Source: Brevundimonas sp. LM2 (lineage in GTDB: Bacteria; Pseudomonadota; Alphaproteobacteria; Caulobacterales; Caulobacteraceae). From it: DNA of 64,000 nt. A program made the position numbers and the translations under genes. The notes under the pieces are model-generated. The model searched no databases, was not told where the DNA came from, and saw nothing but the letters and a program-made list of their open reading frames with translations. The stretch spans positions 248,001-312,000 of the forward strand of contig NZ_CP019508.1 in the NCBI RefSeq assembly GCF_002002865.1, read 5' to 3'. Below, in pieces: positions 29,422-40,584 of this stretch. Positions within the stretch are counted from its first letter, which is position 1, and every line of letters starts with the position of its first letter.

Positions 29422-30023
29422 GTCGCGATCACCCCAGCCCGGCGCAGTTCGGCCAGGACCGGCCACAGGGGCATGCCCAGGACCGTGAAATAGTCGCCCT
29501 CGACCCGGTCGAACAGCTGTGACCCCAACCCCTCCAGCCGGTAGCAGCCGACCGATCCGAGCAGATCCTCGCCTTCGGCCTCCAGATAGGCGTCGAGAAA
29601 GGCGTCGGAGAAGCGTCGCAAGGTCATCCGCGCCGTGTCCACGCCCGACCAGACCACCGCACCGTCCCGGGCGAGGGCGGCCGCCGCGTTCAGATGGTGG
29701 GTGCGGCCCCGCATCGATATCAGCCGCTCGCGCGCCTCCGGCAGGTTGCGCGCCTTGGAAACCATGGTCCCTTCCAGATCCAGGGTCTGGTCCGAGCCGA
29801 GCACCCAGGCTTCGGGGTCGTGACGCGATACCGCCAGGGCCTTGGCCCGCGCCAGTTCCAGCGCCAGTTCGGCCGGGTCGATGCCGGGCAGGGTGGCCTT
29901 GATCGCCGCCTCATCCACCCCGGCGTCCTGGGCGGTGAAAGGCACGCCCGCCCCGGTCAGCATGGCGCGTCGGGCCGCGCTGCGCGACGCCAGGATCAGG
30001 CGCTCGCCGGTCTGGGCGATCAC
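29418..30023 (-). CDS. maf: Maf-family nucleotide pyrophosphatase
   Basis: A 201-residue Maf/HAM1-type protein: [19 protein letters not shown] at the N-terminus, [12 protein letters not shown] with catalytic acidic residues, and [20 protein letters not shown] near the C-terminus. Maf proteins hydrolyse dTTP, UTP or modified nucleotides and are linked to division arrest. Here GCYRLEGLG replaces the AGAYRIQG seen in the dTTPase subgroup, so the substrate is open. Its ATG overlaps the ppsR stop by four bases. Confidence 0.93.
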
Positions 30024-30889
30024 CAGGACACCCCGACGGTCTTGGTGCGGCGTTCGTTCAGCAGGTTCAGGATGGCCGCGGCGGTCTCCTCCACCGAGCG
30101 GCGCGTGACGTCGATGGTCGGCCAGCCCCGACGTTCGAAGGCGCGACGGGCCTTGATCGTCTCCTCGCGCACGGCGTCCGGCTCGACATAGGCGGAGGCA
30201 TGGGTGGCGTTCAGCCCGTCCAGCCGGTTGCGGCGGATCTGGATCAGACGGTCGGGCGAGACGGTCAGGCCGACGACCAGGGGGTTCTTCAGCCCGACCA
30301 GGCGTTCTCCGTCTTCCTGACCCGGGACCAGGGGCACATTGGCGGCGCGCACCCCCCGATGCGCCAGATAGATACAGGTCGGGGTCTTGGACGTGCGACT
30401 GACGCCCACCAGCACGACGTCGGCGCCCTCCAGCTGTTCGCTGGTGCCCTGCCCGTCATCGTGGGCCATGGCATAGTCCAGCGCCGCCATGCGGTTGAAA
30501 TAGTCGTGGTCGAGGGCGTGCTGAGCCCCGACCCGCGTCGACAGCGCCGCGCCGAGATAGCGCGACAGCGCCCCCACCAGCGGGTCCAGCGCCCCGATGT
30601 GGGGAATGTCCAGGGCTCGGCAGCCCTCTTCCAGCTGGGCGCGCAGCTCGCGGTCGACGATGGTGTGCAGGACGACGCCCGGAGCGGTCGCCACCTCGTC
30701 CAGGACCCGCTCCATCTGCCGGTCGGAGCGGACCAGGGCGTAGATGTGCTCGATCGGGATGACGCCGTCGAACCGGGCGGTCACCGCCTTGGCCATGGCG
30801 TTCAGGGTCTCGCCGGTGGAGTCGGACACCAGGTGGACGTGGAAATAGGTCGCCAGGCGCGAGGCGCCGGCGGGGCGGACCGGGCTCAC
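30020..30889 (-). CDS. ppsR: Pyruvate, phosphate dikinase/PEP synthase regulatory protein (DUF299)
   Basis: A 289-residue bifunctional kinase/pyrophosphorylase of the DUF299 family, which controls PEP synthase or PPDK by ADP-dependent phosphorylation and Pi-dependent dephosphorylation. It begins with TYFHVHLVSDSTGETLNAMA and carries the P-loop-like GVSRTSKTPTCIYLAHRG. The start is uncertain: GTG 30889 gives a family-like length; ATG 30985 adds 32 unconserved-looking residues. In Caulobacter this family (RP001) flanks the chromosomal origin opposite hemE, exactly as here, so the upstream region is the predicted oriC. Confidence 0.92.
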   Translation of the reverse strand: MSPVRPAGASRLATYFHVHLVSDSTGETLNAMAKAVTARFDGVIPIEHIYALVRSDRQMERVLDEVATAPGVVLHTIVDRELRAQLEEGCRALDIPHIGALDPLVGALSRYLGAALSTRVGAQHALDHDYFNRMAALDYAMAHDDGQGTSEQLEGADVVLVGVSRTSKTPTCIYLAHRGVRAANVPLVPGQEDGERLVGLKNPLVVGLTVSPDRLIQIRRNRLDGLNATHASAYVEPDAVREETIKARRAFERRGWPTIDVTRRSVEETAAAILNLLNERRTKTVGVSW

Positions 30890-31105
30890 CGGGCACCGCG
30901 TCGGGGGATAGGCGGGGTCGTGGACGGGGTGATGAGACGGATTCCTGTGGATCGGATGGGCACAGCGCGTGCCGGCCCGGGGCATGGTTTCATATAGCGC
31001 GGCGCATCCCAGGGGGCGAGCCGGGAGAATGGGGGATGGCCGGCCGACTTCGGCTGCGGGTGTCCCCCAACGCGAGACCGGATCCGGGTTGGGTTGGGGA
31101 GATCC

Positions 31106-31120
31106 TTAACAAAGGGTAAA
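31106..31120. promoter_or_regulatory. CtrA-type box, near consensus
   Basis: TTAA-CAAAGGG-TAAA, one mismatch from TTAA-N7-TTAA, in the predicted origin. CtrA binding at such boxes blocks replication initiation in Caulobacter swarmer cells. Confidence 0.65.
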
Positions 31121-31166
31121 CGACTCACACGGGGTCTCGGCCGCCGATCCGTTACGAGGCCCAATT

Positions 31167-31181
31167 TTAAGGTCTTGTTAA
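31167..31181. promoter_or_regulatory. CtrA-type box, perfect consensus
   Basis: TTAA-GGTCTTG-TTAA, a perfect TTAA-N7-TTAA, in the predicted origin and 213 bases before hemE. In a genome this GC-rich a perfect match by chance in a short gap is unlikely. Confidence 0.8.
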
Positions 31182-31193
31182 GATCTGTCCCCG

Positions 31194-31202
31194 TTATCCA
31201 CC
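31194..31202 (+). promoter_or_regulatory. DnaA box
   Basis: TTATCCACC matches the TTATCCACA consensus at eight of nine positions and sits 12 bases from the perfect CtrA box, a spacing compatible with mutually exclusive binding. Confidence 0.7.
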
Positions 31203-31393
31203 GGCCGTTTACGATGATGCTCCCTGGGGTCGAAACGAAGGGGAGAACCCGGCCGGACGGGGCTACGGACCCCGAACTGTCCCCGTCCTCCCCCGCCCCA
31301 CTGCCTACCTCCATTTCTTCTTATGATTCTAATCAGGATAAGGAGGAGCAAGCGGACTTGAGGCCCGGCCTGTCCCCCCGTAAAGCCAAGGTC

Positions 31394-32431
31394 ATGACCC
31401 TCACGCCTTCGCTGATCCGTGTCCTTCAGGGCGAGACCCTGGATCGTCCGCCCGTCTGGTTCATGCGCCAGGCCGGACGGTATCTGCCGGAATACCGGGC
31501 GCTCCGGGCCCAGGCTCCGGACTTCATCGCCTTCTGCCTGAACCCGGAAATGGCGGCCGAGGCGACGTTGCAGCCGATGCGGCGGTTCGGCTTCGATGCG
31601 GCCATCGTCTTCGCCGACATCCTGCTGATCCCCCAGGCCCTGGGTCAGGACGTCTGGTTCGAGACCGGCGAGGGGCCGAAGCTGGGCCTGCTGCCGTCGG
31701 TGGACCGGATGCGCGAACTCGCCGACGGCGCCGGCCAGCATCTGCATCAGATCGGCCAGACCCTGAGCCTGGTGCGCGGCCAGCTGGAGCCGGAACGCGC
31801 CCTGATCGGGTTCGCCGGCGCGCCCTGGACCGTGGCCACCTACATGCTGGACGGTCACCACAACACGATCGGCAAGGGCGAACGCGCCACCGCACGGTCC
31901 TACGCCTATGCCGAGCCCGAGAAGGTCGATGCCCTGCTGGAGGTGCTGGTCGAGGCCACCGCCCGCTATCTGAAGATGCAGGCCGACGCCGGGGCCGATG
32001 CGCTGAAGATCTTCGAGAGCTGGGCCGAGGGCCTCCCCGACGACCTGTTCGAACGGCTGGTCCTAAAACCGCACCAGGCGCTGGTCCGCCGGGTCCGCGA
32101 GCTGGGGGTGACCGTGCCCCTGATCGGCTTTCCGCGCGGCTCGGCGCTGCATGCCGACCGCTATGCGCGCGAGGTCGACGTCCAGGGCGTCGCGCTGGAC
32201 ACGGCCTGTTCGCTCGAGCGCGGCAGGCTGGTCCAGACGATCAAGCCGATCCAGGGCGCGCTGGATCCCCTGCTGCTGCGGGTCGGCGGTGCGGCGCTGG
32301 ACCGCAGGGTCGATCAGCTTGTCGAGGCCTGGGGTTCCGGCCCATGGATCTTCAACCTGGGCCACGGCATCCTGCCGGACGTGCCGATCGCTCACGTCGA
32401 GCAGGTTCTGAAGCGGATCGGCGCGCAGTGA
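31394..32431 (+). CDS. hemE: Uroporphyrinogen decarboxylase
   Basis: A 345-residue enzyme that decarboxylates uroporphyrinogen III to coproporphyrinogen III in heme synthesis. Signatures: RPPVWFMRQAGRYLPEYR, with the substrate-binding Arg residues; IVFADILLIPQALG; and GFAGAPWTVATYM. ATG 31394 fits the family start; the frame is open upstream into the origin region but that part is not conserved-looking. It begins the hemE-hemH-hemJ operon. In Caulobacter, hemE transcription starts inside the origin, so expression here may depend on the CtrA boxes (inference). Confidence 0.98.
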   Translation: MTLTPSLIRVLQGETLDRPPVWFMRQAGRYLPEYRALRAQAPDFIAFCLNPEMAAEATLQPMRRFGFDAAIVFADILLIPQALGQDVWFETGEGPKLGLLPSVDRMRELADGAGQHLHQIGQTLSLVRGQLEPERALIGFAGAPWTVATYMLDGHHNTIGKGERATARSYAYAEPEKVDALLEVLVEATARYLKMQADAGADALKIFESWAEGLPDDLFERLVLKPHQALVRRVRELGVTVPLIGFPRGSALHADRYAREVDVQGVALDTACSLERGRLVQTIKPIQGALDPLLLRVGGAALDRRVDQLVEAWGSGPWIFNLGHGILPDVPIAHVEQVLKRIGAQ

Positions 32432-35649: not shown

Positions 35650-35665
35650 TGTTTCACGTGAAACA
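35650..35665. other. parS site 1 (perfect)
   Basis: TGTTTCACGTGAAACA, an exact match to the 16-bp ParB-binding palindrome. It lies 22 bases after the rho stop and 14 bases before the DUF6489 start, 4.3 kb from the origin. Confidence 0.95.
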
Positions 35666-37232: not shown

Positions 37233-37248
37233 TGTTTCACGTGAAACG
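37233..37248. other. parS site 2
   Basis: TGTTTCACGTGAAACG, one mismatch from the ParB-binding palindrome, in the 68-base gap between mnmE and mnmG. Confidence 0.9.
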
Positions 37249-39773: not shown

Positions 39774-40584
39774 TCCAAACAAGAAGGCCCGCGTGTTCGC
39801 CGTATCCAACCAGAAGGGTGGGGTCGGCAAGACAACGACGGCGATCAATCTCGGGACGGCCCTCGCGGCGATCGGGGAGAAGGTGCTGATTGTCGACATG
39901 GACCCGCAAGGCAATGCCTCGACCGGATTGGGTGTTCCACGTGAAACACGACGGATCACCATCTACGACGTGATCGTCGACGGTCGTTCGGTCCATGACG
40001 CCGCCGTCCCTACCGCGGTGCCCGGACTGGACATCATCCCAGCCGATGCGGACATGTCCGGCGTGGAAATCGAGTTGAGCCAGCAGGACCGCCGCTCCTA
40101 TCGCCTGCGCGACGCCCTCGCGCGACAGGGTGAGGATGGTAGCGCCGGGTATGACTATGTCCTGATCGACTGCCCGCCGTCGCTAAACCTGTTGACCCTG
40201 AACGCCATGGCGGCGGCGGACGGGGTCCTGGTGCCGTTGCAGTGTGAGTTCTTCGCGCTGGAGGGTCTGACCCAGCTGATGAAGACCATCGAGATGGTGC
40301 GCCAATCCCTGAACCCGTCGCTTGAGATCCAGGGCCTGGTCCTGACCATGTACGACCGTCGCAATGCCCTGTCGGGACAGGTTGCGGCCGACGTGCGGGG
40401 CCATTTCGGCGACAAGGTCTATGAGGCCGTGATCCCGCGGAACGTCCGGGTGTCGGAGGCCCCGTCCTTCGGCAAACCCGTTCTGATCTATGATCTGAAA
40501 TGCACCGGCAGCCAGGCCTATCTGCGTCTGGCCAAGGAAGTCGTCGGCCGCGAGCGCCGTCGCCGTACCCAGTTGGCCGCCTGA
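39766..40584 (+). CDS. parA: Chromosome-partitioning ATPase ParA
   Basis: A 272-residue deviant Walker A ATPase: FAVSNQKGGVGKTTTAINLG near the N-terminus, VDMDPQGNAST (A' motif), and YVLIDCPPSLNLLTLNAMAA (Walker B). ParA forms a DNA-bound gradient that pulls ParB-parS complexes toward the new pole. The start is GTG at 39766 inside the end of rsmG. A parS-like sequence lies within the coding region at 39933-39948, where it encodes VPRET. A dimerisation/DNA-binding basic C-terminus (RERRRRTQ) is visible. Confidence 0.98.
   Translation: MANPNKKARVFAVSNQKGGVGKTTTAINLGTALAAIGEKVLIVDMDPQGNASTGLGVPRETRRITIYDVIVDGRSVHDAAVPTAVPGLDIIPADADMSGVEIELSQQDRRSYRLRDALARQGEDGSAGYDYVLIDCPPSLNLLTLNAMAAADGVLVPLQCEFFALEGLTQLMKTIEMVRQSLNPSLEIQGLVLTMYDRRNALSGQVAADVRGHFGDKVYEAVIPRNVRVSEAPSFGKPVLIYDLKCTGSQAYLRLAKEVVGRERRRRTQLAA
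39933..39948. other. parS site 3, inside parA
   Basis: TGTTCCACGTGAAACA, one mismatch from the ParB palindrome, within codons for Gly-Val-Pro-Arg-Glu-Thr of ParA. Confidence 0.85.

Follow-up and report, generated by a model that had tools for sequence, protein, structure and literature searches.

In Brevundimonas sp. LM2 the chromosome very probably starts replicating in the gap between ppsR and hemE, which would work like the Cori of Caulobacter. The window analysed here, a stretch of 64,000 nucleotides, covers positions 248,001–312,000 of a genome that consists of one contig of 3,564,519 bases. A first-pass annotation made from the letters of this DNA had proposed an origin in the gap, and our analysis upholds that reading: the cumulative GC skew is lowest at 240–280 kb, with the gap at 279 kb, the locus is conserved in 80 of 80 relatives, and all 3 parS sites of the genome adjoin it. 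CtrA at the origin is the textbook example of how bacterial development is tied to DNA replication, and the comparison with relatives bears on how readily this tie can be rewired. For the window itself the outcome is a firm origin assignment, of the Cori kind already known; what is unexpected is a clade without the usual CtrA sites at its origin and with a conserved GGCGCC array instead.

The C. crescentus Cori is flanked by a ppsR homologue and hemE. The same neighbours were recognized in the window by Pfam (PF03618 and PF01208), as the annotation had proposed, and the start codon of ppsR in relatives aligns at 30887–30889, where the window reads GTG by eye, in keeping with the limits given for the gap in Table 1. 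Our comparison with relatives used the best 80 of 293 loci from a hemE search, and ppsR lies on the opposite strand, 437–623 bp from hemE, in 80 of 80; these loci and the window make up a gap alignment of 81 rows. Twenty further gaps of the family were collected (19 from other genera and one from the same genus; L178 is probably the record of L080 again). CtrA-like and TCCCC[AG] sites are present in 20 of these 20 and ppsR stands beside hemE in 18, one of the other two being cut by a contig end.

Table 1. Features of the predicted origin region (window positions) and loci of the clade lacking CtrA boxes (locus handles).
Feature	Position or locus	Strand	Basis
ppsR-hemE gap, predicted origin (Cori type)	30890..31393	.	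skew minimum, parS linkage, conservation
ppsR (kinase/pyrophosphorylase)	30020..30889	-	PF03618, scanned as 30020-30895; start from alignment with relatives
hemE (uroporphyrinogen decarboxylase)	31394..32431	+	PF01208
GANTC (CcrM site)	30940..30944	.	
G-box-like DnaA site, CGATCCACA within conserved CCTGTGGA	30944..30954	-	alignment; TCCACA there in 45/81 rows
W-box-like TCCCCA	31095..31100	-	alignment, pattern count
CtrA box, one mismatch	31106..31121	+	pattern match
GANTC (CcrM site)	31122..31126	.	
CtrA box, perfect TTAA-N7-TTAA	31167..31181	.	pattern match
W-box-like TCCCCG	31188..31193	+	TCCCC[AG] there in 55/81 rows
DnaA-box-like TTATCCACC	31194..31202	+	8/9 of E. coli DnaA box; rarely full box in relatives
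W-box-like TCCCCG	31280..31285	+	TCCCC[AG] there in 77/81 rows
AT-richest 50 bp of gap, candidate unwinding zone	31302..31351	.	composition; function inferred
GANTC (CcrM site)	31325..31329	.	
parS, perfect	35650..35665	.	
parS, one mismatch	37233..37248	.	
parS variant (TGTTCCACGTGAAACA)	39933..39948	.	
Clade gaps	L031, L033, L035, L045, L047, L049, L050		
Clade gaps, continued	L051, L054, L066, L074, L075, L077, L078		

Cumulative GC skew was followed in two passes, which in all cover 1.56 of 3.56 Mb (44% of the genome) and give a weak signal. Forty evenly spaced 20-kb samples place the maximum near 1.9–2.0 Mb but hardly tell a low near ~3.2 Mb from one near ~0.2 Mb. Closer sampling between 3.12 Mb and 0.57 Mb, through the contig start, puts the minimum at 240 kb for the raw skew and at 260 kb for the third-position, strand-averaged skew, with both curves nearly flat to 280 kb; the predicted origin lies at 279.2 kb. 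The left arm (~3.2 to ~0.2 Mb) is mixed both in GC skew and in the bias of GGGNAGG (KOPS-like), which suggests inversions near the origin. Skew samples from the close relative G125 were noisy, and in G155, of which 400 kb were sampled, the cumulative skew is lowest at 300–340 kb and the gap lies at 330 kb.

A search of the whole genome for parS at no more than one mismatch returned three sites, all 4.3–8.5 kb downstream of the gap. This linkage is conserved: of the 73 related loci that have at least 4.5 kb of sequence after hemE, all 73 carry a parS 4.2–6.1 kb from where hemE starts.

The CtrA boxes of the gap are beyond chance. The perfect TTAA-N7-TTAA seen at first pass is the sole perfect copy in the window, with none in 100 shuffles, and one of only 6 in the 3.56-Mb genome; the second box, described as having one mismatch, is also present. 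Allowing one mismatch to TTAA-N7-TTAAC, the gap yields 3 matches that represent two sites, one of which matches on both strands; 3 matches are reached by 0 of 2000 shuffles of the gap and 1 match by 24 of 2000. Across the related gaps, 114 CtrA-like sites (≤1 mismatch) were counted in 41,570 bp, compared to 2.3 in shuffles and 0 in 473,336 bp of flanking DNA, and the spacing of the pair is conserved. Two sites per row is the commonest state, found in 45 of the 81 rows, window included; the other rows have one (18), three (2) or none (16). In the window the boxes stand 5–6 bp from the W-box-like sites at 31095 and 31188, and because of this spacing occlusion of DnaA by CtrA, as in Caulobacter, is geometrically plausible.

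Fourteen of the 16 rows without a CtrA site at ≤1 mismatch form one clade (SH-aLRT 99 on a quick tree; Table 1), which includes B. diminuta, B. naejangsanensis, B. guildfordensis, B. bullata, B. terrae, B. pishanensis and relatives. On the ppsR-hemE tree B. diminuta is joined by L033, which is labelled Bordetella sp. and is probably a mislabelled metagenome bin. We built a CtrA profile from the 114 sites of the non-clade rows and scored each gap against 40 shuffles. None of the 14 clade gaps beat all 40 (mean best score −0.8; shuffles −0.2), compared to 66 of the 67 other gaps (mean 25.7); as the profile was made from those other rows, only the clade result is an independent test. The two remaining rows are L001, which passes the profile test, and L060, which has 2 copies of GGCGCC.

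The ctrA gene was found in 7 of the 8 clade genomes searched, at 87–89% identity to the query; the eighth, in which it was not found, is the 2.2-Mb metagenome assembly L050. Perfect CtrA boxes elsewhere in the genome number 4–10 in six clade genomes and 2–6 in five others (both strands), counts that in L045 (4 vs 3) and L035 (4 vs 4) are hardly above those for a backward-pattern control. One box, TTAAGGTCGTATTAAC, recurs in 5 of the 6 clade genomes and in 2 of the five others. Because ctrA and this box recur, the clade, judged from its genomes, keeps CtrA and at least one likely target; the boxes at the origin are gone. Brevundimonas thus has origins with and without CtrA boxes at one place, with ctrA kept, and this makes rewiring testable among close relatives.

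The clade gaps are instead rich in GGCGCC, their most enriched 6-mer, with 117 copies where base composition predicts 5.8. Each holds 6–11 copies (mean 8.4), compared to a mean of 2.2 in the other 67 rows and 0.1–3.9 per kb in flanking DNA. In the alignment all 14 clade gaps carry GGCGCC at the same six places, and the 40 neighbouring bases around these places average 0.49–0.74 identity (L014 included). The other invariant 6-mers of the clade overlap GGCGCC copies, except for those at the ppsR start, CCCACA and ATTGAG. In four low-background genomes, 20 of the 21 overlapping matches to a triple-GGCGCC pattern genome-wide fall in the gap, whose limits were derived for this count by arithmetic from locus coordinates. 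Such clusters are not origin-specific in high-GC members, with at least 28–48 matches per genome in 6 of the 12 genomes searched. The 400 kb sampled from G155 contain 86 copies, 9 of them within the 539-bp gap, for which the rate outside predicts ~0.1; of the 12 copies outside long ORFs, the gap holds 9.

Three of the places occupied in the clade also hold GGCGCC outside it, in 33, 35 and 26 of the 67 rows, which suggests that the array expanded from an element already present. The gap of the window and that of L001 contain no copy. GGCGCC and CtrA boxes are not strictly exclusive: L014, near the clade base, has 7 GGCGCC and one weak CtrA box, L181, from the wider family, has 6 GGCGCC and two CtrA boxes, and L060 is described above. 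A statistical link between loss of CtrA sites and gain of GGCGCC was abandoned, since the tree offers only 3 independent pairs, which amounts to one event. In the literature searched we found no report of GGCGCC arrays at a Caulobacterales origin, nor of CtrA-box loss at the Brevundimonas origin; a comparative origin paper from 2009 may overlap with some of this.

GGCGCC is the reported target of a cytosine methylase in this family, CCNA_03741 of C. crescentus, whose orthologue in B. subvibrioides is Bresu_0174; the method of that B. subvibrioides study was itself blind to m5C (PMC7987155). CCNA_03741 is one of two solitary cytosine methylases, enzymes whose role is described as often elusive, and the other of the two makes YGCCGGCR; this source does not mention GGCGCC (PMC12907096). 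A Rhizobium methylase ~52% similar to M.CcrNAIV (CCNA_03741) is associated with ~98% GGCGCC methylation, lies beside putative restriction genes and has its modified base called 4mC (PMC8709438). Searches with PF00145 found CCNA_03741-like methylases in 14 of the 14 Brevundimonas genomes searched, including six clade members. These proteins form two groups, A and B, with that of L076 the most distant, and share ~47–58% identity with a methylase of a Caulobacter-like genome that, from its place only, would be the CCNA_03741 orthologue. No restriction domain was found in the three neighbour proteins of the methylase genes that were scanned. In three clade genomes the group B methylase gene is closely followed, at its 3' end, by a perfect TTAA-N7-TTAA (L186:1351, L188:1353, L189:1349).

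We considered whether base changes or scarcity of GGCGCC reveal methylation. Deamination was uninformative, as 4 of 12 single-step variants at the three shared places are of the expected kind. In the 400 kb of G155, GGCGCC occurs 86 times versus 351 expected by base composition and GGTGCC plus GGCACC occur 660 times; we do not count this rarity for methylation, because GGGCCC (88) and CCCGGG (57) are as rare. A different reading, confined to the clade, is that a sequence-specific protein binds the array and that methylation plays no part. The flanks of the sites have a preference (G before the core, G or A and then A/T after it) that a bare 6-bp methylase site would not need and that fits a binding protein as well as or better than a methylase, and the core is invariant at six places; against this, 3 of the 6 places are invariant no further than the 6-bp palindrome, and that palindrome is the reported methylase target in this family (PMC7987155). 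We regard a protein site of this kind as quite possible, if somewhat doubtful.

The methylation reading of the array leads to a proposal that we put forward as speculative and improbable as it stands: within one genus and at the same origin, a mark of the CCNA_03741 type would have replaced occlusion by CtrA in the clade, and the window lineage would have kept CtrA. The ancestral Brevundimonas Cori would have carried two CtrA boxes together with about three copies of GGCGCC. The B. diminuta/bullata/terrae clade would then have lost the CtrA boxes as GGCGCC grew to the conserved 6–11-copy array, and the putative cytosine mark, sensed on newly copied hemimethylated DNA, could act as a Dam/SeqA-like gate built on m5C. 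The window lineage would have taken the opposite course, keeping CtrA and losing every GGCGCC in the gap. Should GGCGCC at the origin prove to be methylated and read, a solitary cytosine methylase would gain a function and an origin mark based on 5-methylcytosine would be at hand.

Returning to the origin of LM2, the first-pass annotation had described its box set as sparse and its control as simplified. The CtrA half of that description stands, with two boxes compared to five CtrA sites at the C. crescentus origin (PMC4468827). The DnaA half does not, since G- and W-box-like sites, both overlooked at first pass, have to be counted. On the reverse strand, CGATCCACA at 30946–30954 is an 8/9 match to the Caulobacter G-box TGATCCACA; it overlaps CCTGTGGA at 30944–30951, a reverse DnaA-like box conserved in the alignment of the 81 gaps. 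G-box-like matches are common by chance, with 20 in the window versus 9.3 expected. W-box-like sites stand out more clearly: the gap of the window holds 3 TCCCC[AG] and 9 TCCCC versus 0.47 and 0.86 expected, and the 81 rows average 4.5 TCCCC[AG] per gap versus 0.86 in shuffles. A further reverse-strand TCCCC conserved near 31022 is degenerate in the window. The C. crescentus Cori itself is reported to have two G-boxes and five W-boxes, the latter with the consensus TCCCCA (PMC4285127), and on this comparison we reject a sparse set of DnaA sites. We therefore consider it unlikely that the gap is a simplified Cori under weaker control and poor in DnaA sites, despite the small number of CtrA boxes and the lack of a perfect 9/9 DnaA box anywhere in the gap.

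The 8/9 DnaA box TTATCCACC lies 12 bases after the perfect CtrA box, as the annotation had it. The window contains 4 such matches, a number reached by 15 of 100 shuffles, and we reject TTATCCACC as a stand-alone DnaA site on that ground. Exact TTATCCACM occurs at 11 places genome-wide versus 22 for a control pattern and forms no cluster at the gap. The AT-richer zone and the GANTC sites claimed for the gap were borne out, the 50 bp starting at 31302 having 40% GC (7 of 63,951 windows are lower) and GANTC occurring three times versus 0.64 expected.

The dnaA gene lies at the contig start (G000:C1:486–1862), 279 kb away from the predicted origin. All 8 single-contig Brevundimonas genomes examined, that of the window included, have parS near hemE and dnaA ~195–750 kb from hemE; one of these distances spans the contig start and was computed with a rounded genome size. 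Of 8 other single-contig genomes in the family, 7 have hemE close to parS, with dnaA ~6–100 kb off. The linkage of hemE and parS is not universal: the eighth, G011, from another genus, has hemE 1.6 Mb away from its parS, and there the origin may have shifted or hemE may have left it. Some genomes carry further parS elsewhere. The alternative that replication starts at dnaA, as in many bacteria, and that the gap does no more than provide ppsR and hemE with promoters regulated by CtrA, which also acts on promoters, is highly improbable, and we reject it on skew, parS and box placement: the cumulative skew keeps falling from dnaA at 0 kb to 240–260 kb, the whole-genome search found no parS at ≤1 mismatch near dnaA, parS lies at hemE and not dnaA in 7 of 7 other single-contig Brevundimonas, and the gap holds W- and G-box-like sites in addition to CtrA boxes.

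For the gap as origin, binding, unwinding and timing can all be pictured by analogy with Caulobacter. At Cori, DnaA extends from a site of moderate strength across weak W-boxes and is kept off by CtrA bound between them (PMC4468827). In LM2, DnaA would assemble from the G-box-like site at 30946, possibly also from TTATCCACC at 31194, extend onto the weak W-boxes at 31095, 31188 and 31280 and open the AT-rich DNA near hemE. Phosphorylated CtrA on the boxes at 31106 and 31167 would block DnaA until CtrA is removed, and ParB at the three nearby parS would move the copied origin.

Compared with the C. crescentus Cori, the gap of LM2 is alike in lying between ppsR and hemE, in having CtrA boxes among W-box-type sites, with a candidate G-box-like site in addition, in its position at the chromosome GC-skew minimum (240–280 kb versus 279 kb), and in having parS a few kb off and within ~10 kb, as C. 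crescentus has it ~8 kb away (PMC6399470). It differs in having two CtrA boxes, one perfect and one with one mismatch, rather than five, DnaA boxes of only 8/9, W-boxes that are TCCCCG as often as TCCCCA (TCCCCA is 1 of 3 in the window), three parS, and dnaA 279 kb from the gap.

The E. coli oriC, with Dam and SeqA, is an origin packed with one short palindrome that is a methylase target. The origin of the B. diminuta clade resembles it in being packed with one short palindrome, here a reported methylase target, and in that GGCGCC clusters are nearly confined to the origin in the four low-background genomes. It differs in that the putative mark in the clade is expected on cytosine, not adenine. 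LM2 itself has no such cluster of methylase sites, the gap of the window having 0 GGCGCC compared to 6–11 per gap in the clade.
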